Shown here piece after piece: positions 21,757 through 49,901 of a DNA stretch of 64,000 nucleotides; position 1 is the stretch's first letter, and each line of letters starts with the position of its first letter. The notes under the pieces were generated by a model. It made no database searches, was not told where the DNA came from, and saw only the letters and a program-made list of their open reading frames with translations. Where the stretch lies: contig CAUYUJ010015016.1 of NCBI GenBank assembly GCA_963575745.1, positions 906,244 through 970,243 on the forward strand, in the 5' to 3' direction. The stretch is from Prorocentrum cordatum (lineage: Eukaryota > Sar > Dinophyceae > Prorocentrales > Prorocentraceae). A program made the translations under genes and the position numbers.

Positions 21757-21757
21757 A

Positions 21758-22644: not shown

Positions 22645-22808
22645 CCCGCGCGCCCCAGCGCGCTCCTTTTCTCTCCTGCCAGCCGAGGTCGGCTGGTTTG
22701 AGCAGTTATACAGCTGCAGAAACGCAGCATCAGTTCACGTGGACAGTTCATTGCATGCAATCTAAGTTATGTTCTAATTGAGTATGATGCGGAGAGGAGC
22801 ATATTTAC
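22645..22808 (-). repeat. 164-bp terminal direct repeat, left copy (3' LTR-like)
   Basis: Runs from CCCGCGCGCCCC to GAGCATATTTAC on plus. It differs from the right copy at about 8 positions. It contains CCAGCCGAGGTCGGCTGG (8-bp arms) and ATTGCATGCAAT palindromes. Confidence 0.85.
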
Positions 22809-22816
22809 CCCCCCCG
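22809..22816 (-). other. Putative polypurine tract (G8 on minus)
   Basis: An uninterrupted C8 on plus, read G8 on minus, abuts the inner side of the left 164-bp repeat. Position and orientation fit plus-strand priming of a minus-oriented LTR element. It has no counterpart beside the right copy. Confidence 0.5.
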
Positions 22817-23032
22817 CGGCGGGCCGCGTAGAGCCCATCCAGCCACAGCACCCCCGGCCTGTACATGTGCACAACCACCGGAGCCAACCCGAAAAAATGC
22901 TTTTACTGCTCAGCGGTGGCTGCCAGGGGGCCAAGGGCCGAAGAGGCTCGACGTTTCCTACCATAGATATAAATAGTTTCTCTCCGCTGGACCGGCTTGG
23001 CCGACCAGTAGAGAGGTCCGCGCCCAGCACGC

Positions 23033-24586
23033 TTAGCGCGCGGGTAAAGTGTTTGGTGTGCGCATGCCGCGGACGGAGTCACGCGGGCCGCGCTCAGTTG
23101 AGGTCCCCCCACGGATTCCACGAACTCTCTCGCCTTGGCGGCGCCAGAGGCGGCGGTTTGAAGTCGCCGATCCTCCCGACTGTACGTCCATGCCACGAGG
23201 CGTGCGAGACCGCCCCCTCTCTCTGTCATTATTTCCAACCTGTGCCGCCTCTCTCGGCGGGAAATGACGATTATGCTCCCACTTTGACAGCCAGGTCCAG
23301 TAAGGCAAATTGTACCATTCATCATTATTAAGCCACGCGATCCTGTTCCGATGGAGGCGATATCCAACAGGGATTCCATTCACGTGGGTGGGGTAGGACT
23401 GGTCAGGGTCGTATGCGGAGCCGTGTCCTGCGGCGCTGCTGGCAGCATCCGAGGCAGCGCCTGCGGCGGCGCCCGCCGCCGCGGGCAGCGCAAGGCCGGC
23501 GGCGTCATCGGCGGCCGCGACAGAGGCATCATCCATGGCTGCATCGCGCGCGCGTCGCAAATCCGACCGATCCCTCGTGTTGGGATCTAGTAGGTTAGCG
23601 TCTCTGGTCGGCGCGGCTGAGCCGGCGACAGAACGTGGGGAACCAGTGGCCTCCTCAGACGCCTGAGCATCTGAGATGCCAGGTCGAAGAGACGGCGTGC
23701 GAGACAAAGGTCTTGCCTCTGGTCCAGCAGGCACACGTGGCCCCACGATCTCGGCTTCGCCGTCGTGCTCAGGGTCATTATCCCTGCCGTTCATAAATTG
23801 CAATATAGTTCTGGCAGCAGTTGCTGCAGCGACACCATATAGTCCGCATGCAGTGCGGAAAGGGCAATTTTCCTTGTCCTGAAGATCGGTACCGGGGTCA
23901 GGATACTTATCCTGTAGCCAAGTTATGGCTTCTTGTATTATAGCACCGTGGCGACGGACGTCACTCTGCACTTTCCTGCCCATCTTGTGGGCCCATGTTT
24001 CTATAATGTCGTCCGTCTCAACAGCCGCGCGAATTCGGCAGTCCAACGCATATGCGTCGGTTCGCTTCTTTGATTCAATTTCATCCGTGCCCATCATTTC
24101 GCGGCGAATGATTCGCCCCGGGTAACCAATAATGTGGTCCTCCGATATGAAATAGCTGATTATCTCACGAATAATTGCGAAAATCCTTATGGGTCGAAGG
24201 CCCAGTTTCATGTTTTGTGTTGTTACTAACCAATTGTCATCCACTATTTTCTTGATGATCGCCGGGATCGCATAGTCTGCCGTTCCAGTCAGGGTAACCC
24301 TGTCGGGTGTAGTAGGGTTTATTCCCGTGTGTTCAATTATGTAATGAGCGGCAACCTCTCGAACTTCGTCCCCGAACAATCATATTTTAATCAAACGGTC
24401 CTCATGATGAAAGTACACGTGTCCCCCAGGTTCGTCAAGCGTGAGGAGTCCGTCAGTTATCGACGCGGCCTTAGGCCCGCTGATTACTTTGAGGTCCAGA
24501 TTCATTTGTGTCTGCTCCCGTGCCCTCGCGGCTGAGCCGGAGGCATGTCGCAACATGGGAACTATAAGACGATGGTCCCGACACAT
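23033..24586 (-). CDS. Inner element last accessory ORF (unknown)
   Basis: This is the ORF nearest the 3' repeat. An ATG at 24586 starts a frame interrupted only by TGA at 24380-24382 (context HEDRLIKI-stop-LFGDEVREV, where Trp would read naturally), then open to 23033. About residues 60-230 look globular (EVREVAAHYIIEHTG, IPAIIKKIVDDNWLV, IRIFAIIREIISYFI). The C-terminal half is low-complexity Ala/Asp and Arg/Gly/Ser with the motif DEWYNLPYWTWLSKWEH near the end. Three CTNAG palindromes lie inside (24529, 23667, 23614), and 24467 also falls within it; those at 24529 and 23614 encode Gly-Ser-Ala. I recognise no family. About 220 bp without features separates it from the 3' repeat. Confidence 0.6.
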
Positions 24587-24599
24587 GCCGACCCGTCTT

Positions 24600-26045
24600 G
24601 CAACGGAGTGAGAACTGCGAGTCGGTCACGCTGTAAAATTGTTCTCCCAGGCGACCGGTAACCTCGCAGGAGGGTTGTCGTTGTTGGCGTTGTTTCCAGT
24701 ATCTTCAGGAAATACGCCGAACCATGACAATGTCAAACTGTATGCCATCATCTACTGTGGCAAGTGTAGGAACAAAGAGGTTCGCTCTCCTCATGTTGTT
24801 GAACCATTGTGCCCAGCCAATCCTACGTGTGATCAAGTCAATTGGTTCATCAGCCCATTGAAATGCTTGTAGTGCTGGGCAAGATCTGGGGCGAGCGTAC
24901 TGATCAAAACCAGTCGCCCACAATTTTGGCCACCATTTGTTACTAGGCGGGGTTCGCCTGTGTACATTTGCGGCCGAAATTTCTAGCCACGATATAAATC
25001 TCTTGACCAAAAACCTGAATTATTCAAAGGAAGGAGCATGTCGCGCCGGAGGCTGAGCCTCGGCGTTCTCTGGGATCCAAGCTGGAAAGTTCCCCTGCTG
25101 ACTGTTGCCAAATATTGTGCCAGCAACCGCCATTGTGGCAAGGCTGGTTTCCCATTTTCGCTCCTGCTGATTGTTGTTGGCGAAATTTTTCGCAACGTTA
25201 GCAGAAGCTCCCCCTTGTCTCCTTATCCGCGCCTCCATGTATACACGACGATCCCATGACAGAGATCCTTCGTCCTCCACAATTATCCAAATACCATGTG
25301 CCTCAAGGGATTGCGGGATAGTTTTGTACTTCCATGTCTGGGTCATGTAATCATGCGAGACCCTATATTTATATCGGATTGGGCAATTACAGACGGGACA
25401 GTTGGCAAAACCCGTCCTCACCCAGTGGCAACGGAAGCAAAGGAACCTCCCATCGTCATCCCACGGGGTAGATATAATTCGATCTTAAATCGAGGTATCC
25501 AATCTTGATTCGCGGTCCCAAATAATAATCAGTCTCTCGTCTGTATTAACCCAAGCAATTATCGACGCGTTGTCGAAGATGACCTCGTGCGAAGAAAATT
25601 CGCGGTCAAAGAGCACCGTCCAGCGCATCTGATTCATCTGCCTCACGAGCGAGACGGCTTTGTCGATGTCTGTGAATCTCGGTACCTCCCGGGACATCAA
25701 TGTCCCGTCTGGACATACTCTGTACGAGAAGCGGGTGAGTACTCTGCCGGTGAAAACCAGGATAATATCCCATTGCTCATGATGCTTGAGGTTGGAGAGA
25801 CATGGCCAGAGGTGGCGTATGTCTTCCAAGTTCAAGGTACCCACCTTCGGCGGCTCCCCATTCCGAGCCTGGTTGCCCATAGATGCTACGGTTTTATGGT
25901 GGGCGCTTGTCCATATCTCCTTTGGCTTAGCCACGGAGGAAAATCCGAGGGGACAGGCATGGTTGGGCAATTGTGTGCCGGAAGCAAACGCAATAAATCG
26001 CAATCTGCGGCATGACACAGCCCAGAACTGCCCTTTGGAAAGCAA
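24600..26045 (-). CDS. Inner element accessory ORF with zinc ribbon (unknown)
   Basis: One minus-strand frame runs about 1.4 kb, broken only by TAA at 25485-25487 (DTSI-stop-DRIIS), TAA at 25020-25022 (PSFE-stop-FRFLVKRF) and TGA at 24705-24707 (RRIS-stop-RYW). Gln, Gln and Trp would read naturally there. A zinc-ribbon-like motif, CFRC...CPVC, with CNCPIRYKY following, sits near 25430-25380. Other stretches are Trp-rich and globular (QWDIILVFTGRVL, ERLIIIWDRESRL, KWWPKLWATGFDQY). A frame change near 26045 connects it with the ORF upstream. Palindromes at 25923 and 25049 fall in linkers (Val-Ala-Lys-Pro, Glu-Ala-Gln-Pro). Function unknown. Confidence 0.6.
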
Positions 26046-27654
26046 GCATTTCCACTCGTAGACTCCAAATATGCCTGTAGGCTCGTGGTATGTGGAAGAG
26101 ATCCGCGACTCCTGACTTGGCCAGGGTCGCGCGGGACATGCGTTCTTTCAGTCGAAGCGGTAAACGTTGAATGTCCCTGACATGCCCTATAGAATATCGG
26201 CGTGGGCATCTCTCTTCCATTGATCTCTTGTAGAGATATTTTATTGTGTTTGCCCCACAGAGCGTGGATTAGTGCCCCAGCAATATTGGGGCTGTCTTTG
26301 GGGGAAATCCCCAGAACATCGATTGTCCCTGCCGGCAACACAGCTAAGCTGTGTGCAGCCAAGGCGTACGACTGGAAAGTAAAACCGTCATCATATCACT
26401 TCTGCACCAGGTCCCCAAAATAGACCCAGCCTCCTGACGATCTAGCATAGTCCGAACAGTGCCTCGCGATGTATACGGCACATTGGCCTATTATTTTGGC
26501 CAAATCATCCGCTCGGAAACTCAGGCCACTCCAGGTGTCCGAACTGCCTAAGGCAGCCGGGTTTTCACCGTCATCTTCTCCAACTATAAGTGGCCGCAAA
26601 CACGCATAGGCGCCTGGAGAAAATCCATCAGGACAATCATCGGAATGAAATTCGGCTCTCATATAATCCCTTGCATACGCGAAAGGTCCGTCGTCTTGAT
26701 TGAGACCTGCCAATATTGCAAAGATTGGATATTCCACAAATTCTGCCATGCATCTAAGCGTACTTCCCGATTGTGCACGGATGGCTTCGACGCTAGGTGG
26801 CACAGGGCCCGTAATATGGGCGTCCTGGAGCATCTGCTTTAGAGGTCCAGGCGTAGCCTGAAGTATGCGATGGCGTTCATCTGTTGTCACATACAATCGT
26901 TTCTCTTTAAATTCAGCAGCGTGCCCCACCGTTACATCTCGGTCCCCATCGCAAGGGCCCCTGTACTGCGGCCGCCCCTGCCTTTTATCTGGAGTAGGCG
27001 GAAGGCACAATCTTCGGAACATATTCGTAGACGCCGGTCCACGTGGAAAAGTCCCATCATCCATTGACTCCAGAAATTGGGGATCTTTCTCGCGCGGATA
27101 CTTTGAGCAAGAGTCCTCCGATTCTAAGTCCATTTCTTGTACTTCCGGGTGGCCTGAGGCCCCCGGTGGCGACGGGGCTCGGCCTTTAGGAACGTGTTTT
27201 GTCCCATCATCGTGAATGTGTGATGCCCCCTCGTCCGACGGCACTTGTGTCGGACTCGATTGCTCATCTTGTGCATCACGGCGGCTCTCTTGTTCCGCTC
27301 CGGCTGAGCCGGGCGGATGGGCAGGGGGAGTAGGCACTCTGACCATGCTCCCAGAACCTTCTGCCTTTTTACGTCGTGGCCATCGAGGTCCGCCCGCTAT
27401 CATCGGAACGCGCGCAAAATCTCTGTCTACCTTCAAAATTTGTTCGACGATAGCATTGGCAAAGTCATTCCACGCGGGGGAATCTGTGTTTAGCTGCTCC
27501 AGCTCGTCTGGTATACTTATTTCGTTAATGCTTTTCGCTGCCCCGATGTACGATGCAGCAGCAACTCTGAACCTTTTCATCAGAGCAGTGTTGTCCTGGG
27601 CGTCATCTGCTCTCGATTGTAGCCCTCGCAAGTGGTAAAAGAAGTCTTTTTCCC
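25886..27654 (-). CDS. Inner element accessory ORF, downstream of the helicase insert (unknown)
   Basis: The frame reads from the edge of the 4.4-kb insert (KDFFYHLRGLQSRADDAQD) to TGA at 26396-26398 (GDLVQK-stop-YDDGFTFQSYALA, Trp-compatible). It stays open to 25886, though from about 26150 other frames look more natural. Residues about 25-90 are helical (RFRVAAASYIGAAKSINEI). A long Pro/Gly/Ser linker with palindromes (27301 PGSAG, 27151) follows, then a globular part (LKQMLQDAHITGPVPPSVEA, MAEFVEYPIFAILAGLNQD, LAKIIGQCAVYIARHCSDY). Upstream across the insert the same frame continues at 32012, suggesting one ORF split by the insertion. I recognise no family. Confidence 0.6.
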
Positions 27655-27704
27655 CACATCCAAAGTGGGGTTCTTGTTCCCCACATCCAAAGTGGGGTTC
27701 TTGT
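27651..27704. repeat. 27-bp tandem duplication with hairpin
   Basis: TCCCCACATCCAAAGTGGGG plus TTCTTGT is present twice in a row. Each copy contains a CCCCAC/GTGGGG hairpin with a 7-nt loop. On minus it reads as a 9-residue repeat, QEPHFGCGE, but it lies at the edge of the insert. Confidence 0.85.
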
Positions 27705-27769
27705 TTTCTCTGCACACCCCCGCGCAGGAGAGAGATCTCACTCACCCCCTCTTCTCCTCGCACTCATTC

Positions 27770-27955
27770 ACACACACACATCATCATCACTCGCACTCTC
27801 TCACACGCTCACGAACATCATCGTCATCATCGGTATCGGCATCATCCTCATTCAAACATCATCATCGCCACCACCACCCACAATCAATCATCATCCTCTT
27901 CACCACTCATCTTCACCACCACTCATCATCCTCATCCTCATCATCGTTGAGTAAA
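27770..27955. repeat. CA/ATC microsatellite, first unit
   Basis: Mixed (CA)n and (ATC)n tract between the insert edge and the first 160-bp array. The matching tract of the second unit is at 30010-30298. Confidence 0.85.
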
Positions 27956-27958
27956 GTG

Positions 27959-28985
27959 TGAGGAAGTCTCAGGCGGGAGCCCCCTCCCTATGGGGCCCGC
28001 AGATCATGTTGGTAATCCGAGCGGGTCATCGGAACCCTGTAACTGTCGTCACTTTTGGGCTCCCCAGGCCTGAAAATGGAGGAAGTCTCAGGCGGGAGCC
28101 TCGTCTGTGAGTGAATTGGGAGGAAGTCTCAGGCGGGAGCTCCCTCCCTATGGGGCCCGCAGATTATGTTGGTAATCCGAGCGGGTCATCGGAACCCTGT
28201 AACTGTCGTCACTTTTGGGCTCCTCAAGCCTGAATATGGAGGAAGTCTCAGGCGGGAGCCTCGTCTGTGAGTGAATTCTGAGGAAGGCTCAAGCGGGAGC
28301 CCCCTCCCTATGGGGCCCGCAGATCATGTTGGTAATCCGAGCGGGTCATCGGAACCCTGTAACTGTCGTCACTTTTGGGCTCGTCAAGCCTGAATTTGGA
28401 GGAAGTCTCTGGCGGGAGCCTCGTCTTTGAGTGAATTGTGAGGAAGTCTCAGGCGGGAGCCCCCTCCCTATGGGGCCCGCAGATCATGTTGGTAATCCGA
28501 GCGGGTCATCGGAACCCTGTAACTGTCGTCACTTTTGGGCTCCTCAAGCCTGAATATGGAGGAAGTCTCAGGCGGGAGCCTCGTCTGTGAGTGAACTGCG
28601 AGGAAGTCTCAGGCGGGAGCCCCCTCCTTATGGGGCCCGCAGATCATGTTGGTAATCCGAGCGGGTCATCGGAACCCTGTAAGTGTCGTCACTTTTGGGC
28701 TCATCAAGCCTGAATTTGGAGGAAGTCTATGGCGGGAGCCTCGTCTTTGAGTGAATTGTGAAGAAGTCTCAGGCGGGAGCACCCTCCCTATGGGGCCCGC
28801 AGATCATGTTGGTAATCCGAGCGGGTCATCGGAACCCTGTAACTGTCGTCACTTTTGGGCTCCTCAAGCCTGAATATGGAGGAAGTCTCAGGCGGGAGCC
28901 TCGTCTGTGAGTGAACTGCGAGGAAGTCTCAGGCGGGAGCCCCCTCCCTATGGGGCCCGCAGATCATGTTGGTAATCCGAGCAGG
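27959..28985 (+). repeat. Array of 160-bp tandem repeats, first copy
   Basis: AGGAAGTCTCAGGCGGGAGC starts at 27961, 28121, 28281, 28441, 28601, 28761 and 28921, spaced exactly 160 bp with no length drift. The unit holds the phrase GGAGGAAGTCTCAGGCGGGAG twice (about 97 and 63 bp apart). The seventh unit runs into the helicase exon and changes after TCATCCAAAACC. Confidence 0.95.
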
Positions 28986-29090
28986 TCATCCAAAACCTGT
29001 AACTGTCGTCAATGTTGGGTTCTCGCGCTGCCAGAACGCAGTTCCCAGGCCACACTTTGGATGCAACAAGGAAGTTTTTGGGCTCCTCAG

Positions 29091-29573
29091 GTCGCCGAGG
29101 TGCTGCGACAGGGCGCCGAAGGCGCCGACGACGACGGCCAGGCCGAGGCGCGGGCGCGGAGCTTGCTGATGTTCAGGCCCAGCGAAAGGGAGTTCACATG
29201 GCAGAGCTCGGGGGCGCACAGCGTGCGCCGCTCGGGGTTCACCCTGACGCACGCGTCCTACCTGACCTCCACGCTGTCGCAGGGCCAGACGCTGCGCAAG
29301 GGCGTCACCATCGACTGCGCGAGAGACGAGGACGCTGGCCGCACGGGCATGTCGGACGAGCAGTGGTGGCTGCACCTCTACGTCATGTTCTCCCGCGCCA
29401 CGTGCATGCGGAACATGCTGATCCTGCGGCCGCCGCCGCGAGAGTTCCTGGAGTGCGGGCCGCCGGCGTCCCTGCGGAAGGCGCTCCTGGAGTTCGACAA
29501 GAGAACGGTTTTGTCCAGGGCGGAGGCGAAGCAGCTCGCGGCAGAGCTGGGCTTCGTGCTGCCTTCCGCCTGA
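29091..29573 (+). CDS. Helicase C-terminal exon (SF1, PIF1-like), copy 1
   Basis: The encoded protein ends with superfamily-1 helicase motifs: FTLTHASYLTSTLSQGQTL (motif V type, S-x-QGQTL) and WWLHLYVMFSRAT (motif VI type, Y-V-x-x-S-R), then MLILRPPPREFLE and a basic/helical tail to the TGA at 29573. The ATP-binding half is absent. I start it at 29091 because TTTTTGGGCTCCTCAG immediately before is a convincing 3' splice site. The open frame extends left to 28911, but only through the 160-bp repeat and with a GTG start. Alone it cannot be an active helicase. Copy 2 lies 2023 bp downstream and encodes nearly the same protein. Confidence 0.75.
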   Translation, partial: VAEVLRQGAEGADDDGQAEARARSLLMFRPSEREFTWQSSGAHSVRRSGFTLTHASYLTSTLSQGQTLRKGVTIDCARDEDAGRTGMSDEQWWLHLYVMFSRATCMRNMLILRPPPREFLECGPPASLRKALLEFDKRTVLSRAEAKQLAAELGFVLPSA

Positions 29574-30009
29574 GCGCGGCTGCGCCTCGCTCGAAGCCCG
29601 CGGGGTTGTCCCAACGGCTTGGTCTTGCGCGCCAACGGCTCGCGGGGTTGTCCCGACAGCCTGGCCCGCGGGGTTGTCCCAACGGCTGCGCGACGTGACC
29701 TGTAGAGAACGCGCCTGTGCTGGCCGTGGCGGCGACGGCGCCGAGGAACATCGACATGCGCGCTCATGCAACAGGAAGGGGAGGAGGTGGCGGGGCGCGG
29801 AACAAACAGGGGGGCGAGGATGGGGACAACGTAAGGAGTGGAAGGGGGGCCCGCGCCAAGGCGAGAGGAAATATACGCAGAAGAGACAGCCAGGACGCCT
29901 CACCAACCACGAGGACGACGGTGATGGCTTTTTCCAGATTCGCCCAGAGGATTCTTATGTGGGGTTCTTCCGTCGGAGTAATTTTCTCTGGACACCCCGC
30001 GCAGGAACA

Positions 30010-30298
30010 GGAACACACACACACACTCACACTCACTCACACTCTCTCATCATCAACCTCATCAGCATCATCGATGATGCTCTCTCACATGCTTAGTCAC
30101 TCACATACTCTCATCATCATCATCACTCGCACTCTCTCACACGCTCACGAACATCATCATCATCATCATCATCATCGGCATCGGCATCATCCTCATTCAA
30201 ACATCATCATCGCCACCACCACTCACAATCAATCATCATCCTCTTCACCACTCATCTTCACCACCACTCATCATCCTCATCCTCATCATCGTTGAGTA
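30010..30298. repeat. CA/ATC microsatellite, second unit
   Basis: (AC)n followed by (ATC/CAT)n, equivalent to 27770-27955 in the first unit. Confidence 0.85.
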
Positions 30299-30304
30299 AA
30301 TTGT

Positions 30305-31015
30305 GAGGAAGTCTCAGGCGGGAGCCCCCTCCCTATGGGGCCCGCAGATCATGTTGGTAATCCGAGCGGGTCATCGGAACCCTGAACTGTCGTCACTTTT
30401 GGGCTCGTCAAGCCTGAATTTGGAGGAAGTCTCAGGCGGGAGCCTCGTCTGTGAGTGAATTGCGAGGAAGTCTCAGGCGGGAGCTCCCTCCCTATGGGGC
30501 CCGCAGATCATGTTGGCAATCCGAGCGGGTCATCGGAACCCTGTAACTGTCGTCACTTTTGGGCTCCTCAAGCTTGAATTTGGAGGAAGTCTCAGGCGGG
30601 AGCCTCGTCTGTGAGTGAATTCTGAGGAAGGCTCAGGCGGGAGCCCCCTCCCTATGGGGCCCGCAGATCATGTTGGTAATCCGAGCGGGTCATCGGAACC
30701 CTGTAACTGTCGTCACTTTTGGGCTCGTCAAGCCTGAATTTGGAGGAAGTCTCAGGCGGGAGCCTCGTCTCTGAGTGAATTGTGAGGAAGTCTCAGGCGG
30801 GAGCCCCTCCCTATGGGGCCCGCAGATCATGTTGGTAATCCGAGCGGGTCATCGGAACCCTGTAACTGTCGTCACTTTTGGGCTCCTCAAGCCTGAATTT
30901 GGAGGAAGTCTCAGGCGGGAGCCTCGTCTGTGAGTGAACTGCGAGGAAGTCTCAGGCGGGAGCCCCCTCCCTATGGGGCCCGCAGATCATGTTGGTAATC
31001 CGAGCGGGTCATCCA
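30305..31015 (+). repeat. Array of 160-bp tandem repeats, second copy
   Basis: Unit starts at 30306, 30465, 30625, 30785 and 30944 (159, 160, 160 and 159 bp). Two units fewer than the first array. The third unit of each array shares an AGGAAGGCTC variant, so the arrays were duplicated as a block and then changed copy number. Confidence 0.95.
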
Positions 31016-31113
31016 AAACCTGTAACTGTCGTCAATTTTGGGTTCTCGCGCTGCCAGAACGCAGCTCCCAGGCCACATTTTGGACGCAACAAGGAAGTTT
31101 TTGGGCTCCTCAG

Positions 31114-31596
31114 GTCGCCGAGGTGCTGCGACAGGGCGCCGAAGGCGCCGACGACGACGGCCAGGCCGAGGCGCGGGCGCGGAGCTTGCTGATGTTCAGG
31201 CCCAGCGAAAGGGAGTTCACATGGCAGAGCTCGGGGGCGCACAGCGTGCGCCGCTCGGGGTTCACCCTGACGCACGCGTCCTACCTGACCTCCACGCTGT
31301 CGCAGGGCCAGACGCTGCGCAAGGGCGTCACCATCGACTGCGCGAGAGACGAGGACGCTGGCCGCACGGGCATGTCGGACGAGCAGTGGTGGCTGCACCT
31401 CTACGTCATGTTCTCCCGCGCCACGCGCATGCGGAACATGCTGATCCTGCGGCCGCCGCCGCGAGAGTTCCTGGAGCGCGGGCCGCCGGCGCCCCTGCGG
31501 AAGGCGCTCCTGGAGTTCGACAAGAGAGCGGTTTTGTCCAGGGCGGAGGCGAAGCAGCTCGCGGCAGAGCTGGGCTTCGTGCTGCCTTCCGCCTGA
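31114..31596 (+). CDS. Helicase C-terminal exon (SF1, PIF1-like), copy 2
   Basis: Duplicate of the exon at 29091-29573, with the same THASYLTSTLSQGQTL and WWLHLYVMFSRAT motifs. Within the exon it differs at a handful of codons: Arg for Cys twice, Pro for Ser, Ala for Thr. The nucleotide changes are C/T or G/A, with copy 2 holding the C or G, so copy 2 looks closer to the ancestor. Again the nucleotide-binding motifs are missing and a 3' splice-like CTCCTCAG precedes the exon. Whether either copy is expressed cannot be judged. Confidence 0.74.
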   Translation, partial: VAEVLRQGAEGADDDGQAEARARSLLMFRPSEREFTWQSSGAHSVRRSGFTLTHASYLTSTLSQGQTLRKGVTIDCARDEDAGRTGMSDEQWWLHLYVMFSRATRMRNMLILRPPPREFLERGPPAPLRKALLEFDKRAVLSRAEAKQLAAELGFVLPSA

Positions 31597-34200: not shown

Positions 34201-34390
34201 TTCTCACGAATGGTCCTTTTCAGCTGTTTCCCCAGGGGCTTCGATATCCTCGATATTGGTCGCAGGAGCCAACGGAGGGGCGCGCGGCGACTGAGCCGTC
34301 ATTGCGCTAGAACCAGAGCCCATTCCGGCTGAGCCGACGGATTTGGCCTTGTCAGTTGCGGCAACAATGCCGGGCTGGCCGGTCAAAACT

Positions 34391-40432: not shown

Positions 40433-41443
40433 TTATATGCCCTTAGGGCAATTTTCCGAAGGTTCTTGAAGTAACTTCCATCCCTGGGCCAGCTTGTCGG
40501 CAGGTCCTGACAATTTGAAATCATCGACATAAATGATCAAGAAAATTTGCAATTCTTTGTGGAAGTAACAGCTTCGCCACGGACTACATTTCACAAAACC
40601 TTTCGCCGTGACATGTCCCTCGCAATGCTGTTCCCAGTACCCGCCCGAATCGGTATGTCCGTACAGAGATAAGTACAGATGACACACGGGGTTTCTCATG
40701 TTGGACCATGCTTTGGGCCATTCGTCACGAGGCAAGAAAACCCAAGTAGGAGCGCCTCCCAACTTTGACTGTGTGTAAGCTTGTCGAGCGTCAGCTTGTT
40801 CGATGCTATGGCCTTCAAACAGCCCGTAAGTATCGGCTGCTTTGCTGGCCTGCATTGTCGCGGGACTGATGGACAATTCCTGAAATAGTGCCGCGTCTTT
40901 GTTTTGATCTCTAACACTCGAACCGTCAAAGACCACCCGACCTTTGTACTTGCGGTCATTGTGTCCGAATGGTAACTCTGAATTCTTTTCAACAAGGATC
41001 GCAAATAAGCTGCCAAAATGAGCCGTCTTCCCTGTGAGTTCGGCAACAACGTCGGAATATTCCCTAACACCATCTTCTATCCACGTGCCAATGTCGCGTA
41101 GTCTGTCCCAGAATTTTCTCAAGGCAGCTTGAGCGTCTTTGTTTGCCTTTGCCTCGTCTTTCGAGACAGATCTGGCTACGGCGGCATCTGCGCGATTGCA
41201 GCGCCTGCAGTGCCAGTCGTTGGAAAGTTGGAAAGGCTCATCGATGACGGATATTACATCTGTACATGGATTATAGAAGTATTGCAAATCAAACCTTTCT
41301 TTGTCACGATGATTGATATCTGTGTCTGAGCTGTCTCGTAGCGGCATTCGAGGCACGCTTCGCCGCGACGCGGCGGCCGCCGGACTCGAGGTCAGGCTTG
41401 CCTCGCCGTTGTCCTCAGATTTTCCGTTATCATTGTCAGACAA
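40433..41443 (-). CDS. Inner element reverse transcriptase (Ty1/copia type)
   Basis: RT palm and fingers motifs are clear: KYKGRVVFDGSSVRDQN, ATMQASKAADTYGLFEGHS, EQADARQAYTQSKLGG (catalytic Asp), TWVFLPRDEWPKAW, CHLYLSLYGHTDSGGYWEQH and FLIIYVDDFKLSG (YVDD box). A zinc-finger-like HCRRCNRADAAVA and a helical region precede it. The N-terminal 60 residues are an acidic/Ser linker. Confidence 0.9.
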   Translation of the reverse strand: MSDNDNGKSEDNGEASLTSSPAAAASRRSVPRMPLRDSSDTDINHRDKERFDLQYFYNPCTDVISVIDEPFQLSNDWHCRRCNRADAAVARSVSKDEAKANKDAQAALRKFWDRLRDIGTWIEDGVREYSDVVAELTGKTAHFGSLFAILVEKNSELPFGHNDRKYKGRVVFDGSSVRDQNKDAALFQELSISPATMQASKAADTYGLFEGHSIEQADARQAYTQSKLGGAPTWVFLPRDEWPKAWSNMRNPVCHLYLSLYGHTDSGGYWEQHCEGHVTAKGFVKCSPWRSCYFHKELQIFLIIYVDDFKLSGPADKLAQGWKLLQEPSENCPKGI

Positions 41444-41546
41444 GGGGCCCCTGTCGGCTGAGTCGGAGGGTAGCCCGTCTCTTGCTATAGTGCCTCCATA
41501 CCATGTTTGTTTCCACTAAATGTCTTCGTCATCTGACAGGTGTCCG

Positions 41547-42182
41547 TCAGGAACGTCTCTGATGAATCGTCAGTTCGAGATGTGGTTTGATAGACCTGGG
41601 TGCGTCGCGACGCCGCCCCTCGCCCACTGCAAGGAGTGTAGCACAGGCTGCCGTTTGTATTCGACGTAGCTGCTCAGCAGCCTTAGGTGCAGTTAGCCTG
41701 GCTTCGGGGAGAGCCGCAAGCGGCTGAGCCACTGCGGGATCGGGCGGAGTCGGTGGGTCATCCACATCTAGACCAATATCACGCAGAAGGCCTAGGCAAG
41801 GACCGGGATCCTCTATACCGAAGAACCCTCTCTTTTCAGCCTTGTATTGTTCTACGGTCTGTCGACGCTGCGCTTGGGTCATGTTAAACCATCGTCCAGG
41901 GTGTATCCCGGGATTGGTAGACTCGGGTAGCTTCTTTAACCATTGGGCACTGTATTTTGGGTCTGGGTCTGTGACCCACACTCGGGTTATAGGCACATAA
42001 TCAGGGTCATAATAAAGAACAACTCGTGTGCTACATGTCTTTCGACGACCTGACAACGGGAGTTTCTGAACTAATTCGTCTTTTGAAATCCAGCAACAAT
42101 CCGTCTGTCTTCGAAATGTTACATTGTATCCAAATTTTGATTGTTCGGGCAAGAAGCTGCCATTTCCCTGGGACTTTCTCAC
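41547..42182 (-). CDS. Inner element Pol linker between integrase and RT
   Basis: Reading continues from the integrase after a frame change at the palindrome 42183-42195. It reads RQTDCCWISKDELVQKLPLSG, VVLYYDPDYVPITRVWVTDPD and PGRWFNMTQAQRRQTVEQYKA, a conserved-looking insert I associate with dinoflagellate copia polyproteins but cannot name. The tail is Pro/Ala-rich and carries a weak palindrome near 41722. Confidence 0.55.
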   Translation of the reverse strand: MRKSQGNGSFLPEQSKFGYNVTFRRQTDCCWISKDELVQKLPLSGRRKTCSTRVVLYYDPDYVPITRVWVTDPDPKYSAQWLKKLPESTNPGIHPGRWFNMTQAQRRQTVEQYKAEKRGFFGIEDPGPCLGLLRDIGLDVDDPPTPPDPAVAQPLAALPEARLTAPKAAEQLRRIQTAACATLLAVGEGRRRDAPRSIKPHLELTIHQRRS

Positions 42183-43293
42183 GCGGCTTAGCCGCTGAGA
42201 AGTTGGACTGTCGGTCCAAACGATACTCGAATTGTGCGAGTCCTAGTTTTTGGTTTTTGTCTGCAGGATGGGAGTCGCGCTGAGGGCCCCTGCCGTCAAC
42301 TAACAGAGGCACATCATCCACAGACAAACCCCCAGGACCGTCGTCATCAAGATCGGCCACGGAGTCAATGCGTGGTGCGTCCTCGCCTTCCTGGGGAGGC
42401 GGTGGCACCGGAATGGCAGGATCATCAGCATTAAACATGTTGTCCGGTCTTATCCCTGTGGCTGGTTGCGGTCCGTCTGAGACGGCCGCGCCTTCTCCTG
42501 TTTCTGTAGGGATTGTGACGGAACGTACCTCCGTCGCCGCTTTCTCGTATGCTTGTCGCAAAGGAAACTGAGGCGACTGGTCGTCAGCAGTACCATCTAA
42601 GATGTTGCTGTACACTTGGTCAGACTTCTCGATCGTGGGTCGTTTCCCCTCTGGAGTGCGCCCTGACCCCGTATTCAGTCCGTCCAATTGTCTCAGAGGT
42701 ATTACGTAACTATCAGGTCCAACCAATCCCCCCGCTTTGTGCACATACCCCAAATATATCCCTGGAACCATCGTTGCTCCAGTCTTGGCAGTGCGGAAAC
42801 GGGATTCAGGCGGAGGCACACAACGGATAAGTGATCCGAAGGGAAGAAGCGGAGCATTGAACTGGCATCCGAAGCGTCTTTCCCAGCTGGGCTGCCCTTC
42901 AGCAGGGGTCCTTGCATTGTAGCATAAGCATAAATATCGAACTGCATAGGTCCAATATGGTGGTGGAAGACCAGCCTGCATGAGTAAGGCTCTAGCACCC
43001 ATCTGCACCGCGCCGTTCGCACGCTCGGCGACAGCATTTTGTTTCTTGTTTCCTGGGATGGTAAGATCATGGGCAACATTGAGCTCGTAACATGCCCTAG
43101 CGAGCTCTCTTGCACCATCTGTATAACAGTCTTCTAACTTTCCCTCCGGGGCTCTAAGGTTTACTAAAAAGTTACAACCGTGAACCGCAGACTTGTCGTG
43201 TACACCCTGAGCGGCGAGAAAATCTGTAGCTCGGTCGCGAAAAGTCAAACGCGGTCTCGTCGTGGAGTCCCCGCGAGAGTTCATCCATCGCAA
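42031..43293 (-). CDS. Inner element integrase core
   Basis: RATDFLAAQGVHDKSAVHGC, CYTDGARELARACYELNVAHD, LTIPGNKKQNAVAERANG, GARALLMQAGLPPPYW and YLCLCYNARTPAEGQPSWERRFG match the retroviral-type integrase core of copia elements. The second Asp is in YTDG and the Glu is in VAERANG, 30 residues apart. The first Asp is probably in TTMDHW of the preceding frame; the two frames exchange near 43235. The C-terminal half (KFR-type tail, GYVHKAGGLVGPDSY) ends in an acidic linker with a perfect CCGTCTGAGACGG palindrome (42473). D-x30-E is shorter than the canonical 35. Confidence 0.82.
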   Translation of the reverse strand: MRWMNSRGDSTTRPRLTFRDRATDFLAAQGVHDKSAVHGCNFLVNLRAPEGKLEDCYTDGARELARACYELNVAHDLTIPGNKKQNAVAERANGAVQMGARALLMQAGLPPPYWTYAVRYLCLCYNARTPAEGQPSWERRFGCQFNAPLLPFGSLIRCVPPPESRFRTAKTGATMVPGIYLGYVHKAGGLVGPDSYVIPLRQLDGLNTGSGRTPEGKRPTIEKSDQVYSNILDGTADDQSPQFPLRQAYEKAATEVRSVTIPTETGEGAAVSDGPQPATGIRPDNMFNADDPAIPVPPPPQEGEDAPRIDSVADLDDDGPGGLSVDDVPLLVDGRGPQRDSHPADKNQKLGLAQFEYRLDRQSNFSAAKPREKVPGKWQLLARTIKIWIQCNISKTDGLLLDFKRRISSETPVVRSSKDM

Positions 43294-44806
43294 ACCAATG
43301 ATCCATCGTCGTCAGTTGTCCGAACGAAGTGGGGTTAGCGCATGGGCGAGGAACATTTAGCCCTTTGTTCTGCGCTTTGCGCTGTTGTTTTCTGATGGCT
43401 TTGGCCCAATTGCGCACTGGGCAATATGGGTTCTTAGGAGTATGAGTTAGAAGGCGCGGTAGGGAGGCTGCAGCCTTTTTGAGCCGCTCGGCAAGAGTCT
43501 CCGACACCTCAACCTCCGCAACGTCTGGGTCTAAATCTGGCGGTGCGTCGACGTCGACCAAGTCGACACCGTCAGCGTCTCCAGCTTCACCCTCCTCGGG
43601 TCCTGGGGCCGCGTTGCACGCATCGGAGTCCAGTCCTCTACTTGCTTCGTACGGGAGGTATCCTGAAACTCCACATCCAAAATGGCATCTATATGCGGCA
43701 GCACAAGCCTCGGCTTTGCCGGGCTGCTCGTCGAATGAACCGACGGCTTGACCGTGGTCGGGCAAAGCTGAGAGACTATTGGAGGCAGCAATACCGGTTG
43801 GCGTCCGATTCCAACCGCATTCGCTGGCCAACTGAAGCGAATAGTAGAAGTAGGTGATGGTATCCGCAGAGTCTATCGAAGACGGGAAATAGGGCGCGAT
43901 CTCGGTCGGCCGCCCATCAGCGTAGCTGTGGGTACCAATCAGCTCATGTGTGTGCAGGTCTATGGTTACGCGAGTCTGGACAGCGTGGGGCGGAGGGCCT
44001 CCCGCAGATTCCACGTTGTCCAGGAATGCCTTGGCGCCCAGCGTCACGCAACACCACCGCTCGAGGGGCTCGCTCCTTCTGGCGGCAGCTGCGCACATCC
44101 ACTGACCCAGCGCCTCTTTGCCTGATAGGGTCAAGTATGGTATCTTGCCCTCAACGGCTAGGTCCACTCTTTGGCCGTTGGGCAACAGTAGGTAGGGCCT
44201 TTGGCCAGCTGGCCAAAAGAAACTAAAGCCGCGATCCATGCACCGCTCTCCTACCGAGATCACGCACGGGGTCTCCGGCATGACTAGAGCGTTAAAACTA
44301 CCACCCTTAAATTTGGGACACGCGATGCGAACTGAACCTAGAGCCTTGGATTCTCCCCCGGCAGTGTTCAGGAGTGATCGATTGCGGAAGCTTTCGTAGC
44401 AATATCATTGCACCTGCGCTCCTAATGTATTTCTCCGCAATTAGGTTGTACCCGCACCCAGTATCTATAATGAAGCTCAATGCCCCCGGATACGCAGCGT
44501 CTTTGTCTGTGCATCCAGCAGCGGCTGAGCCGTGCGGGCTTTCTTTCCCCTCTTCGTCTATCAACCAGAGATGCCAGACGTGATCTTGCAGGTCTGATGA
44601 TCTGATCAAAGCCTCTGCGACAGACGCCCTCGACTGTATCGACATATGTCGGCGTATCTTCCTGGGAACTTCCATCTGTCTTTGCTACTTGAAAGCAACT
44701 CTTTCAAGTCGTGGCGACGCGCCGTTCTCCAAATGATAGTCGGCCCCTCAGTAGAGGGGTGAAAACGGACACGGAGATTGCATCGGTTGCTATCCCGATG
44801 TCTCAT
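43172..44806 (-). CDS. Inner element protease and pre-integrase region
   Basis: About 44675-44370 reads WHLWLIDEEGKESPHGS, then GALSFIIDTGCGYNLIAEKYI, a retropepsin-type D-T-G active site. The frame changes near 44365 and continues NTAGGESKALGSVRIA, MPETPCVISVGERCMDRGFSF, WPAGQRPYLLLPNGQRVDL, the usual second half of such proteases. A 200-residue acidic linker follows, then LLTHTPKNPYCPVRNWAKAIRKQQRK, a pre-integrase zinc-region remnant, and FGQLTTMDHWFAMDELSRG, the start of the integrase core. The palindrome at 44522 sits in the protease N-terminal linker (HGSAAAG). Confidence 0.78.
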
Positions 44807-45220
44807 GCAACTCTTACCAGGGGGAACGCACCAGTACTTTTTGATCGCGCCCCGAGAAAGAGGGCACAGGAAATTCGCAAGGACATTGACGAGACTCTCG
44901 ACCTGTTTCCTGCCGTCCTGTTGAAACTCACCTTTGGAGGTATCCCAATAGTCTCCTCCATCGGCACTAGAGGCAATAGCCCAAAATTTAAGGCTGATTT
45001 ATTTTTGCCCTGGGAAGCCCCGGAATAATGGGGCGGGGCACGCGACGGCACCCAAGCTGATTGAATCAGTGGGTCTTTCCCAGACCCCCCGTTTTCTGCT
45101 CAACCGACGCAGGCTTCGCCACGTCGGCCGAACGAGGACGACAAGAAAGAAGACCATTAACAAAATTATGTCTGTCATCCCTCCAGCACTGACGGCTGAG
45201 CCGCCAGTGTGGAGCCATTG
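44807..45220 (-). other. Degenerate region between Gag and protease
   Basis: Three short frames alternate (CRPRSADVAKPASVEQK, KSALNFGLLPLVPMEETIG, FNRTAGNRSRVSSMSLR). It is probably coding sequence broken by small indels; no motif assigned. Confidence 0.35.
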
Positions 45221-46721
45221 TCACGTAGCTGGATGACCTGGGGTGGTCTTGGCGAAGCAGCATTCTTTCCCGCGTGAGCACTTTCCCGTTTCTCTGTAAG
45301 AGCGACAGACCATGTCTTTGCCTTTGCCACCGCCTTTGTTTTTCCCTCCATCCTTTTTGCGTTTGTCGGAATCAGCACTAGTGGCTCTGGAGCCACCGTT
45401 ACTTCCCGTCGAAGATATATCGGCAGCAGCAGCATTGGCCTGTTTGGATGTACGCTCATATCCCAAAGATTGTCCAGCGTCAAGTCTCGCTTGTTCCCAC
45501 TTGTCACGCTTCAATTTCTCGGCATCGGTTAGCCTTCTATGGGCCTTGTGGCATCCGTCTTCGGATCCTCGACAATTCGCGGGGTCTCGGGAGTATGCGT
45601 AACACGGAATATTACTGTCTTTCCCACGCGACTGACTTCTATTCTTCTGCTGTCCTCCTTTCCCTCGGTTTCCAGTCGGGGTCTGGGATCGGCCCTGCCC
45701 CTTTCGGCCCCTGTCCTTCGATCTACCTCTAGGGTTCTTATCCTGGGCAGGGGCGGCGCTGGACTTCCGTCCCGCACTCGGCTGAGCCGGCGCGGCGTTC
45801 TTGGGCTTCTTGCGGTTGAAGGGACAGCCTTTTCCTGCATGCGGGCAAGTTTCGCCGTTGGTAACGTATCTGCACATGGTTTCGCCCTTGGTTTTCCCGC
45901 TTTTCATGACATCCGAGGATTGCCCCAACTTAGTGGCAATCTCTGCCGGGGCGGCTTTGCTGCCTGCATTCCTCCGATTGTCATTGCCTCCGCCTCCGCC
46001 GAATCGTGCTTGTCTGGCTAAGGTTTCCCCATGCGCGCTGATGTTCCATTATCCTTTTTCTCGCAACATCATTTCTTCAATCTGCTCCATCAGCCATTCG
46101 TAAGTTTTGACACCTTGTCCCGTTCTGTCTTTCGACAACTCATAACTTACATATAAACTCCAGTTTGCTCGGCTTTCTGCATTGTTCAAGAAAGTGCGCA
46201 TGAATCGAGGCCCTCATCTCATCGGACGGAGGCTTGGCGCCATAAAGCTGTTGATACACATCTGTCCATTCATTGTAGAAATTATACAGGTCAGCATCAG
46301 GCTTGTGCGGGTCTATCTTCACTTTGAAGAGGTCACGCGAAATGCGATGTTGTCCCAACTCCGACCTTACCGAACACCAGTGACAAATAGCCCGCGCCAT
46401 CTCGCGTCCAGTGATAAGCCTTCCCTCGGTCTGGGCGCTGAATTCCATGCGAGTAACCTGTTGAAGGAGATGAGTATGATGAGGAGGCTGATATCGACTC
46501 TTTCGCATCTTGTTGAACTTCTCGATAATATGCGTTGCGGTCATAAGGTCGAGACGCTGGAATCGCCCAGCATCTTTGAGTTGCTCATCCTCCACGGCTG
46601 GATCCATAGCCTCGGCAATCCAGTGCTGCGCTGCCTGGCTCTCTGGCGATGACCCAGCGATGGCGCGTATTGCGTGCATTTTCCACTCGCGAATGTTCGT
46701 AACATCTGGGATGTCCAACAA
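45221..46721 (-). CDS. Inner element Gag with CCCH zinc fingers
   Basis: 46721-46140 encodes a helical capsid-like region (DVTNIREWKMHAIRAI, HRISRDLFKVKIDPHKPDA, DLYNFYNEWTDVYQQLYG). A frame slip at GAGTTTATATG near 46145 leads to YELSKDRTGQGVKTYEWLME, TAA 46049-46051 (MMLREKG-stop-WNISAHG, Gln-compatible), and a basic nucleocapsid (45928-45221). The latter has CCCH-like clusters: CRYVTNGETCPHAGKGCPF, CYAYSRDPANCRGSEDGCHKAH and CRSYRETGKCSRGKECCF. The last lacks the expected His three residues after the third Cys. CCCH fingers replacing the usual CCHC knuckle fit RNA binding by Gag. The palindrome at 45779 encodes Ala-Gln-Pro between clusters. Confidence 0.75.
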
Positions 46722-46783
46722 ATCAGTTTTCTGGTTGTTACCAACCTGTCTCCACTGATCTAACGGCGTGCTCTCGTCAATTA

Positions 46784-47712
46784 CTATCGAGTCGTGCGGT
46801 CCGCCGGGGCCTTGAGGCCCCCTGCGTCCACCCCCACTATCAGAGGGGTCTGACCCCCTGGGCTCCCCGGAAGCGATCCTCGTGGTCCTCTACCACGATC
46901 ATCTTCGTGCGAAGACACGATCTCAGTGTTGGGAGCATCGCTCTTGTCGTCATCTTCTCCTCCGTTTCCTGCATGGCCCGACGACTTAGTCGCCGTCGCT
47001 CCCTCAGGACCATCTCCATAGGTTGCGCGGAGATTGGCAAGAGTGTTATTTTCGTCAAGCCCAGTTAGCCTCATCCCTGCAGGGAGTCCACTTTCAGCAG
47101 TGCTCGGCTTAGCCGGACCTCCAAGGGCAGGTCCTGGGACATAATAATGTTGATGCAACAACGGCCCCACGGGGGTTCTTGCGAAAGCAACGGAAATCCG
47201 AACGACTTCGATGTGAGTCCGACTTCACGTTTAGTTTCAGTATACGGATTCGGGTCGGCGATGATAACCTTAAGCCTCATCTTTCCTATCTCTCTGTTAA
47301 CCGCGTTCGATGCAATCTCTTCTTCTCGCATGTTAGCCGCTGACCTTTCACCCTTCCACAGGTCGCATCTAGAGCATCTCCTCGTACTCGCATCGATATG
47401 CTCGTCGCAAGCCGAGTTGCCACATCAGACGCAATTGTCTGTCTTTGGACGACAACAAACGGCACAACACTGGTCCACGGGAAGCGTGATTCCATTGCCA
47501 TCAGGAGGAGGGCGCGTTGCACCTCCTACCAGCATGGTCGATACTCCCGCATTTGCCACGGTCGTCTGGTCGAATTGCGTAGGGGCAGATGCAATGCTCG
47601 ACGACTGGGCCCTCGATAGCTGGTGTATGTTCGACCCGAACGGCTTAGCCGGCGGGCATTTAGTGTTGCTCGACCTTATACGCTGAAGAGACGATCTGGC
47701 TTCCTCATGCGA
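46784..47712 (-). CDS. Inner element zinc-finger ORF (unknown)
   Basis: It follows the preceding ORF in frame after TAA 47713-47715 (NLYLEEL-stop-SHEEARSSLQ). A Pro/Ser/Thr N terminus with a palindrome (47641, PPAKPFG) leads to a Cys/His cluster (CCAVCC, then CV-stop-CGNSACDEHID and RRCSRCDLW), broken only by TGA 47425-47427 at a Trp-compatible site. The pattern of Cys pairs with DEH resembles RING/B-box-like cross-braced fingers. After MREEEIASNAVNREIGKMRLK and VIIADPNPYTETKREVG, the frame changes near the palindrome 47105 to an acidic/Gly tail. Family unknown. Confidence 0.55.
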
Positions 47713-49651
47713 TTAAAGCTCTTCCAGATAGAGATTGCTCTGGTTGGTTATCTTCGCAGCTACAGCTTGGGCGTCGTTTGCTTTCAGCCTGGCGGCTTTG
47801 AGCTCTTCTTGTGATCCCTGCTTTTCTCGTTCAGCCACGGCTGTCGCGATTTGTTCTCCTTCTATCTTGGCCGCTGCAACGGCAGCGGCAGCCGCGTGGG
47901 CGTCCGCAGATTCTTCGTTCGCCATCATAACGGCCCGTCTCTCCGAAGTCAATAATTCTCTGTATTTGTCTTCTGCCCCCCTCTCCACTTGCCATTTCAC
48001 GGCCTCAGTCTGGTTGCACAGGTGTTCTACCAGCGCTTGTTCACGCTCTCTAGCGGCCATGGCTAGGGCGATCCGCTCAGCCTCAAACGTTTTCCTGGCT
48101 TCGATCATGGGTTTCAATTTATTCTTCTCTGTCCAATCGAGCCCTTTCAGCCAGATTCGCCTCATTAGTCAGAAACTCTCTCTGAGTGCTAGCCTCTGCT
48201 AGCCTGGCCTGGTCTTGAATAGACTGCAAGAAGAGGTATGCGCAGTTGTGCTCGTCCATTGGGTAGCACTCCGCGCATAGCCATTGCATGTTGCACTTGT
48301 TGCAAACGCCCGAGCAATTCCTGCGCACTGTCGGGCTTGCTGGCACTTCCCGGGGCATCTGTTCTCCGCCTGAGGCGCGCAGCCAGGATTGGGATTCCAA
48401 CATACCTCCATCATAGAAACTGCACTGTTGCTCCTAGAGGTAGACCTCGCCCCTGATCTTGGTATTTTGGGTCTTCCCCTGCTCGAAGAATTCGATCTGG
48501 GGCGAGCAAAAAAACTTTCTGGTGGTTTGGGCGCATTTAAGAGCTCCTCATCCTTCTCGTCTTGTTTGATTAGCTGAGAGTATATATCTTGTTGTCCGAC
48601 CATTTCTTCGTGCTCAGCAACAGCCGGAATGGTAGGTTGCCCCTCGCCTGAGGTGGTGGCGTTACGGAAGAAGCCTCCCTGCAAAGGCGAGACGTTTAGC
48701 TCATAGTCCTCATTCCGTTGTTTCCTGAGGTTAGGCGCAGGAGTTCGCCCAGTGGACTCCCTCTCATGCTTCGTTTGAGTCTCCGTCCTGTCCGCCTGAG
48801 GCGCCAGAATACTAGCGTCTTCGTCGGATCCATCTGGGGGCCAACTTTTGTCTCGAGCAGGGATGCCTGCATCCATCATCACGGACAACGCTCGGCTCAG
48901 GGAAGTTTCATTATTGATACTATCAAAATTTTCTTCCATGCAATATATTTCGTGATCTTTGTCTATCGGATCATCGCTATCCTGACCGAATTGTCCGTTA
49001 AGTGCCATAGGGATTGGGGCAGTAACATGCATGCCCACCCAATCTACGGGGACATTAGGATACGCATTCGGATTCCCTTGGGCCCCCCCTGGCCGGCTGG
49101 CTTCGCCAGCGGCAATGGAGGTAGCTTGTGGAGCATTCTGGATGGGACTTATCGACTCCGTCGAGTTGGCACTCAACCTTGAAGAGAATGCACCTCGTCT
49201 GGGCCTTGGCGCGACGCCTTCTCGCCCGCGAGGGTCGGGGGTTTGCTCACGATCACATATCGGAGCCCCTGCTGTGGGTATATCTACCGGCATTTCGGTT
49301 ATCCCATCAATACTTCTCCCCCTCATGACCCGATCGGCGATAGTTGAAGGAGGGGTTCGGTCTTGAATAGGACCGATTATATCTGTATCGTGTCCATCAT
49401 GTTGTTCAACGCGCCAATCTGCGCTTCTCGAGATATTAAACACGATATTAGTCTTATCATAGCTCTCTCCCGCAGCGACTGAATCGCGGGGCACGACTGA
49501 AAGATTCTTTTGTATCTAATGGCCCCGCGTCGACTGAGTCGCGCGTTTCGGCTGATAACCAGTCTTTCATCTGAGAATCGGGGTAAGATGACAAAGGAAT
49601 TAAGATCTCATGTTCACTCTGCTCAGGGAGAACGGAGGCGGGATGAGACAT
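47713..49651 (-). CDS. Inner element first ORF: acidic linker, zinc finger, coiled coil
   Basis: An ATG at 49651 (MSHPASVLPEQSEHEIL) starts the most 5' ORF of the minus-oriented element. The frame changes at the imperfect palindrome 49475-49487, continues as a 400-residue acidic, disordered region, and changes again at the palindrome 48367-48377. There it becomes a Cys/His finger (CSGVCNKCNMQWLCAECYPMDEHNC). A last change near 48150 gives a heptad-like Ala/Glu/Lys coiled coil (KPMIEARKTFEAERIALAMAAR) ending at TAA 47713-47715. The order disordered-finger-coiled coil suggests an assembly or RNA-binding protein, possibly an extra Gag module. Confidence 0.55.
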
Positions 49652-49737
49652 TGATAAGACAGATATCCGTTAAGCTAAACCACTCTATCAGGAATAGGAA
49701 GGGAGGAGGAAGGCCGAGGACGGACGACGACGAATCG

Positions 49738-49901
49738 CCCGCGCGCCCAAGCGCGCTCCTTTTCTCTCCTGCCAGCCGAGGTCGGCTGGTTCGAGCAGTT
49801 ATACAGCTGCAGAGACGCAGCATCAGTTCACGCGGACAGTTCCTTGCATGCAATCTAAGTTATGTTCTAATTCAGTATGAGGCGGAGGGGAGCATATTTA
49901 C
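49738..49901 (-). repeat. 164-bp terminal direct repeat, right copy (5' LTR-like)
   Basis: Same 164 bp as 22645-22808, from CCCGCGCGCCCA to GAGCATATTTAC. Similarity ends abruptly on both sides. The next base begins the resumed outer element. Confidence 0.85.

Follow-up and report, generated by a model that had tools for sequence, protein, structure and literature searches.

Elements of the copia superfamily are usually 5,000 to 10,000 bases long. In a review on giant transposons, the giant long terminal repeat (LTR) retrotransposons are of the gypsy type, the words 'copia' and 'dinoflagellate' are absent, and the first open reading frame (ORF) of the Burro elements is given as 4,873 amino acids (PMC6431247). 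LTR elements of Ectocarpus span 3.9–14.5 kb (PMC12477816), and the Copia elements of Symbiodinium are stated to lack any DNMT domain (PMC5890265). Here we describe an element within 64,000 nucleotides of the dinoflagellate Prorocentrum cordatum (assembly GCA_963575745.1, contig CAUYUJ010015016.1, positions 906,244 to 970,243 of the forward strand; the window). It is a decayed, nested, minus-strand copy of a copia-type LTR retrotransposon of ~23.1 kb. The family to which it belongs is very probably a giant lineage of the copia superfamily, with 342-bp LTRs, in which a long block of additional coding sequence behind RNase H (the cargo) is co-encoded with Pol. Its members have LTRs, 5-bp target duplications, a polypurine tract and, by motif, a protease–integrase–reverse transcriptase–RNase H (PR-IN-RT-RH) order; the unit recurs as a whole and is under coding constraint along its full length.

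Results

A family of giant elements in which cargo recurs with pol

The 4.13-Gb, 21,875-contig host assembly was searched with a 164-bp repeat that bounds the window element as bait. Of 483 candidate places 40 were scored, and all 40 matched the LTR bait, giving 12 same-contig, same-strand LTR pairs, the window included. Five of the 12 pairs are spaced by 22,679–22,783 bp, and the other seven by 15.3, 21.4, 21.7, 24.5, 27.1 (the window), 30.6 and 38.0 kb. Six pairs, among them C18410 and C7825, were retrieved from LTR to LTR for comparison. Alignment of their 5' and 3' LTRs defines an LTR of 342 bp with the termini AGT...ACT in place of TG...CA; LTR elements without TG...CA termini exist, for example TARE1 (PMC3701649). 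Family copies carry a G-rich tract ahead of the 3' LTR, and the Kimura two-parameter (K2P) divergence between LTRs is 0.021–0.067 in the six copies. Direct LTRs with 5-bp target duplications are found in all six, the duplications being exact in five (GGACG, GAAGA, CCACC, GGAGG and CCTCC) and differing at one base in the sixth (CTCCG/CTCCT), as well as in C18991; several lie in simple repeats. Flanks differ among the six full copies and each has its own duplication, so that the whole unit appears to have inserted independently each time.

The sequence-only reading of the window had proposed a large cargo-bearing retroelement lineage, and the recurrence of the whole unit with its cargo supports this proposal. 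None of the 12 LTR pairs ends directly after RNase H, and one order of pol and cargo is shared by the window and the six retrieved copies (7/7), the latter having a gag-pol-cargo order in common. Cargo ORF pieces are collinear across these seven, with ~64–97% amino-acid identity; C7825 is without ~1.3 kb of cargo (element positions 15.1–16.4 kb). Two 1.2-kb probes each, applied to four further pairs, matched cargo in 4/4 and pol in 4/4, one of the pol matches (C2665) spanning 96 bp only. The twelfth pair, C18991 (C18991:37700-53300), retains its LTRs, gag and 3' cargo, has lost the protease through the methyltransferase-like module, and has the target duplication AGCAT within a CATAG-like repeat; it was either mobilised in trans or deleted afterwards. 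A ~790-bp repeat lies between its polypurine tract and 3' LTR.

Simple repeats, for instance GGA/CCT runs or CATAG units, occupy the 5' flanks of C240, C18410, C18421, C7825 and C18991, perhaps reflecting a target preference. The family is not a large share of the genome, as 483 candidate places of 23 kb amount to less than 0.3%.

A probable single long reading frame behind Gag

The seven mapped copies are each broken at different places. Ten unmodified ORFs from six copies (the window included) overlap pairwise by 52–463 residues at 81–94% identity, and these overlapping ORFs run in one frame from element position 4761 to 22448, as pairwise overlaps rather than as a joined sequence. With its pieces overlapping in this way, the second frame (ORF2) looks like a single polyprotein of ~5,900 codons, ~3,900 of which follow RNase H. 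The longest ORF, of 1,701 amino acids in C7825, joins RNase H to cargo. The last ORF stops at 22448 in four copies; in two others its end is at 22509. When positions 400 to 22400 were scanned in 50-bp steps for an ORF of at least 200 amino acids reaching 100 bp to either side, a spanning ORF was missing solely at the Gag end, besides piece edges and alignment breaks that longer ORFs bridge. The only boundaries common to the copies are thus the Gag UGA and the 3' end, for which reason separate accessory genes were rejected; the six accessory ORFs distinguished earlier in the window look like decay-broken pieces of one frame. A conserved frameshift near element position 2645 was likewise rejected: four of the seven copies are in frame there, so that the shift reflects decay of some copies.

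Cargo and pol are equally constrained

The ratio of non-synonymous to synonymous differences (pN/pS) was calculated in frames taken from the ORFs of C18410, omitting stretches of this copy without a long ORF, against the six other copies including the window. Pooled ratios are 0.380 in gag, 0.374 in pol and 0.392 in cargo, whose successive thirds have 0.419, 0.389 and 0.378. Permuting the positions of substitutions 300 times gave means of 0.695, 0.706 and 0.705 and minima of 0.602, 0.608 and 0.638 for gag, pol and cargo, respectively, with none of the 300 as low as observed. As the cargo ratio is near that of pol and both fall below the permutations, the cargo is under as much constraint as pol. 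A frame-free test in 600-bp windows lay below all 60 permutations in 13/19 cargo, 7/10 pol and 6/8 gag windows; there was no signal in the cargo windows starting at 12300 and 18300 and the end windows starting at 300 (a gag window) and 22500.

In C18410, the G+C content of third codon positions (GC3) of gag is 0.53 and that of pol 0.52, and the cargo thirds have values of 0.55, 0.55 and 0.50. The giant element is rather uniform in this respect, unlike the ordinary copia element beside it in the window, the sole comparator, where GC3 is 0.79–0.84.

Pol domains and the Gag–pol junction

The reverse transcriptase of the window copy matches RVT_2 at E 1.7e-4 (21.7 bits, below the Pfam cut-off of 31.6) and that of C15513 at E 0.0036, also below the cut-off; RT families other than RVT_2 gave no Pfam match in pol. 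A zf-CCCH match in the window gag (E 1.4e-4) is above the Pfam cut-off, and gag-asp_proteas matches weakly in C18410 (E 0.1). Motifs identified by eye, together with the RVT_2 hit, place integrase upstream of RT and RNase H, giving the order PR-IN-RT-RH rather than the PR-RT-RH-IN of Burro-type gypsy elements. The minus-strand series of gag, protease, integrase, RT and RNase H previously read in the window is thereby upheld, by Pfam hits for RT and zf-CCCH and by motifs for the rest.

In all six retrieved copies an ATG at element position 252 or 254, within the LTR, can serve as the start of Gag; one of these copies has a stop soon afterwards. Gag ends in UGA in 7/7 copies, and pol is in the frame of Gag in five of these, the remaining two having local insertions or deletions. 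Folding predicts a one-bulge hairpin of 15 bp behind the UGA in 8/8 copies (C18991 added); four stem positions vary among copies, with three changes retaining pairing and one breaking it. The hairpin ranks 5 of 3,024 45-nt windows in the element of the window, and the 120 nt from the UGA fold with a z-score of -3.8, 1/200 shuffles being equally stable. A strong hairpin close behind a stop is a usual layout for readthrough. The UGA, the hairpin behind it and a pol in the same frame together suggest UGA readthrough as a candidate route from Gag to pol. Just behind the hairpin, at window positions 45131-45178, a Met codon of ORF2 is followed by a very hydrophobic stretch (IILLMVFFLVVLV).

Content of the cargo

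The cargo ORFs scanned gave no significant match in Pfam, NCBIfam, PHROGs or PDB, the best matches (Pfam, E 0.036; a PHROG of unknown function, E 0.0077; PDB, E 0.061) being taken as chance. One cargo module (C7825 residues 586-688) is homologous to a module just upstream of the integrase of the ordinary copia (29% identity over 106 columns, E 4e-7; E 1.4e-6 in a second comparison), and blastp of the RNase H–cargo ORFs against that element at E 0.01 found nothing beyond this shared module. The PC-like and acidic motifs of the cargo module, recognised by eye, suggest a methyltransferase-like function; Pfam gave no methylase match for the module in the window or C7825, the C5-methyltransferase domain (PF00145) included. 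AlphaFold models are poor, with a pLDDT of 42 for the methyltransferase-like module and 29 for the SDST/GDST module. By eye only, the SDST/GDST module resembles SGNH hydrolases and the HGT/GVY module ADP-ribosyltransferases. One borderline case apart, no transmembrane-like stretch was seen in the cargo ORFs scanned; an envelope was rejected, since these ORFs hold no clear transmembrane cargo behind pol. No relative was found in IMG/VR by scans that reach close relatives only.

The element in the window and its setting

The 164-bp direct repeats noted earlier are real, 22645-22808 and 49738-49901 being 95% identical. They do not form a complete LTR: 164 bp is part of the 342-bp repeat, and the shorter length reflects truncation, since other copies continue past it. 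The left LTR of the window breaks off at 22645, abutting an ordinary plus-strand copia. Coding past RNase H does run on to about 23033-23036; the accessory region, put at about 15 kb, measures 16.1 kb in this copy, of which ~11.7 kb is cargo proper once the 4.4-kb insert is subtracted. The earlier length of 22.9 kb without the insert agrees with the ~22.7 kb between the starts of the two LTRs.

A primer-binding-site-like sequence, GGTTATCAGCC, follows the 5' LTR. Its complement may resemble an anticodon arm rather than a tRNA 3' end, as with the half-tRNA primer of Drosophila copia. No tRNA gene was found within the window. Coordinates of these and the other features are collected in Table 1.

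The insert contains two direct copies of a ~2.3-kb unit, and 160-bp tandem repeats. Its plus-strand ORFs look by eye like the end of a PIF1-type helicase; Pfam found nothing at E 0.1.

The ordinary copia, ~7.7 kb, is split into 15826-22644 and 49903-50745. Its 183-bp terminal repeats (15826-16008 and 50563-50745, 97% identity) flank both sides of the giant element, which is therefore nested within it. It has rve and weak RVT_2 Pfam hits, with integrase before RT; a methyltransferase-like module precedes the integrase, and a transmembrane-like stretch follows RNase H. Elsewhere in the window, 2856-3440 is an extended CAC-rich tandem repeat readable as a His-rich ORF, and 9503-11048 a GC-rich minisatellite of ~57-bp units that reads as repeated QRAP-like peptides.

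Table 1. Features of the giant element in the window (window positions).
Feature	Position	Strand	Evidence
5' LTR, complete, 342 bp, AGT...ACT	49561..49902	-	5'/3' LTR comparison in six other copies
Primer-binding-site-like GGTTATCAGCC, directly after 5' LTR	49550..49560	-	Adjacency to LTR
Gag region, decayed here; Cys/His-rich block and CCCH fingers; in-frame TGA end 45221-45223	45221..49651	-	
15-bp hairpin, six bases past Gag UGA, candidate readthrough signal	45181..45214	-	RNA fold prediction
Aspartic protease region, DTG ~44465, limits approximate	44200..44560	-	Motif
Integrase, HHCC 43444-43423, core D 43125, E 43041, limits approximate	42031..43450	-	Motifs by eye
Copia-type reverse transcriptase, YVDD	40433..41443	-	RVT_2, E 1.7e-4
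RNase H	39137..39844	-	Copia-like motifs by eye
Cargo A: lysine-rich linker and methyltransferase-like module	37130..39136	-	Homology to neighbour copia module
Cargo A/B: Trp-rich part and SDST/GDST module (34391-35848)	34391..37129	-	
Cargo B: HGT/GVY module (33326-33874) and Pro-rich linker	32067..34390	-	
Later insert, 4.4 kb, absent from other six copies	27638..32066	.	Copy comparison
Cargo C: 3' part of ORF2, CxxC ribbon-like motif, through ORF2 stop	23033..27637	-	
Polypurine (G-rich) tract, directly before 3' LTR	22809..22820	-	Sequence comparison of copies
3' LTR, cut to first ~164 bp	22645..22808	-	Repeat alignment, comparison with other copies

Discussion

In the life cycle that we propose for this giant copia-type family, the LTR would drive transcription of the element RNA and Gag, of ~1,480 codons, would be translated from the ATG within the LTR. 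Aided by the hairpin, a minority of ribosomes would pass the Gag UGA to make a Gag-Pol-cargo fusion, the second part of which would be one frame of ~5,900 codons; the protease would then free the Pol enzymes and ~3,900 residues of cargo within the particle. Because the cargo is in the frame of Pol, it would be made in enzyme-like amounts and packaged with Pol. Given such packaging, the likeliest role of the cargo would be that of a replication or host-manipulation enzyme set arriving with the cDNA, rather than an envelope, with the methyltransferase-like module as its clearest member.

A number of observations weigh against parts of this interpretation. The RVT_2 match falls below Pfam's own cut-off; PR, IN and RNase H are without a significant Pfam hit and were placed by motif and order; and the giant gag and pol have no blastp match to ordinary copia gag or pol at E 0.01. 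Three or four of the duplication sites are GGA/CCT-like simple repeats, which weakens the 5-bp matches, and the LTR divergence of 2–7% shows no very recent insertion. C18991 has gag and the last 8.8 kb with pol lost. As ORF2 is fully open in 0/7 mapped copies, the polyprotein is inferred from overlapping pieces. The frame-free windows not below all permutations number 6/19 in cargo, 3/10 in pol and 2/8 in gag, and the strength of constraint is overstated because all comparisons use one reference copy and are non-independent. The UGA common to close copies may reflect descent, and readthrough is predicted from the layout and the hairpin. Readings of cargo function rest on one remote homology and on motifs by eye.

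Could the cargo be foreign to the element, an ordinary copia having been joined to unrelated genes or elements and multiplied by segmental duplication or assembly? The window is indeed rich in nested repeats, with the giant element within the ordinary copia and the 4.4-kb insert within the giant, and one further LTR, C7566, appears to have the same flank as C18991. Against this, the six full copies differ in their flanks and have separate target duplications around the whole unit, on which ground a tandem or nested composite was rejected, and the cargo shares the frame of RNase H and is equally constrained, making a foreign origin of the cargo very improbable. The cargo could also be made as several proteins from subgenomic or spliced mRNAs, or pol could be translated after reinitiation or splicing rather than by readthrough of the UGA; this rival is possible, if on balance unlikely. 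In its favor, the UGA is followed by a Met codon and a markedly hydrophobic stretch, and in Tca2 of Candida, which has a gag-UGA-pol layout, the flanking sequence failed to direct readthrough in yeast (PMC2194720). Because the Tca2 flanks failed in this way, readthrough in the giant element remains a prediction. A single expressed fusion is favored by the ORFs, which overlap in a single frame all the way from PR to the end without a stop or boundary shared by the copies, and by the hairpin close behind the stop.

Wider departures from a cell-bound retrotransposon were also weighed. That the element is an endogenous dinoflagellate virus, a giant pseudovirus with horizontal transfer, appears improbable; its virus-like size, the hydrophobic stretch at the start of ORF2 and a GC3 of 0.50–0.55 throughout are in its favor, but the ORFs scanned contain no envelope-like or transmembrane-rich cargo, IMG/VR holds no relative within the reach of our scans (close relatives), and GC3 was compared with a single ordinary copia. 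Somewhat less doubtful, and still speculative, is a virus-like 'giant pseudovirus' of dinoflagellates in the sense of an undescribed giant copia lineage with host-foreign codon use, a ~7,400-codon Gag-UGA-Pol-cargo fusion and ~3,900 residues of enzymes in its particles. We retain the giant copia-superfamily retrotransposon with cargo co-encoded with Pol.

Giant LTR elements are already known; what would be new here, compatible with the evidence, is a giant LTR retrotransposon of copia type whose extra half is a constrained Pol extension. Searches of open-licence papers showed no comparable giant copia or dinoflagellate copia, and the sequence-only suggestion that the lineage is possibly undescribed is compatible with them. 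A copia-type element of equal coding size would show that a second superfamily can surpass the limits on RNA length, reverse transcription and packaging, and cargo selected like RT would mean that gigantism need not be hitch-hiking DNA. The family also makes it testable what use ~3,900 residues under selection are to a retrotransposon, and it supplies a candidate signal for UGA readthrough.

Tca2 of Candida albicans is a copia-type element of ordinary size, not known to carry cargo after RNase H. It resembles the giant element in having gag and pol in the same frame, a UGA between them and a potential structure behind it (PMC2194720). The ordinary copia in the window is likewise an LTR element with integrase before RT and a homologous module; it differs in its length of ~7.7 kb, in the position of the module before integrase instead of after RNase H, and in its GC3. 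The cargo of the Vesta and Juno LTR elements of bdelloid rotifers is a separate ORF3, and these elements are not copia-type. Like the giant element, they and the Terminons carry captured enzymatic ORFs, including GDSL esterases (PMC5408684, PMC6431247); the SDST/GDST likeness to these esterases was drawn by eye and is unproven. SymbioLINE-Dnmt and SymbioDIRS-Dnmt3 of Symbiodinium are dinoflagellate retroelements coding for methyltransferases, and are LINE and DIRS elements with recognisable DNMT domains (PMC5890265), whereas the giant element is without a Pfam methylase hit. The Ogre elements of plants (gypsy, 16–25 kb) are also very large LTR retrotransposons with extra ORFs, and owe their size mostly to LTRs of 1.9–6.5 kb, with an internal region of 11–13 kb and one or two extra ORFs (PMC6431247); the giant element has LTRs of 342 bp and its bulk is coding. 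Burro, a Ty3/gypsy element of planarians, has an internal region that reaches up to 25 kb, a huge polyprotein, extra domains and many copies, all of which recall the giant element, together with the gypsy order PR-RT-RH-IN and several extra domains that appear to lie between Gag and PR (PMC6431247). In contrast, the giant element has the order PR-IN-RT-RH and carries its cargo as one block after RNase H.

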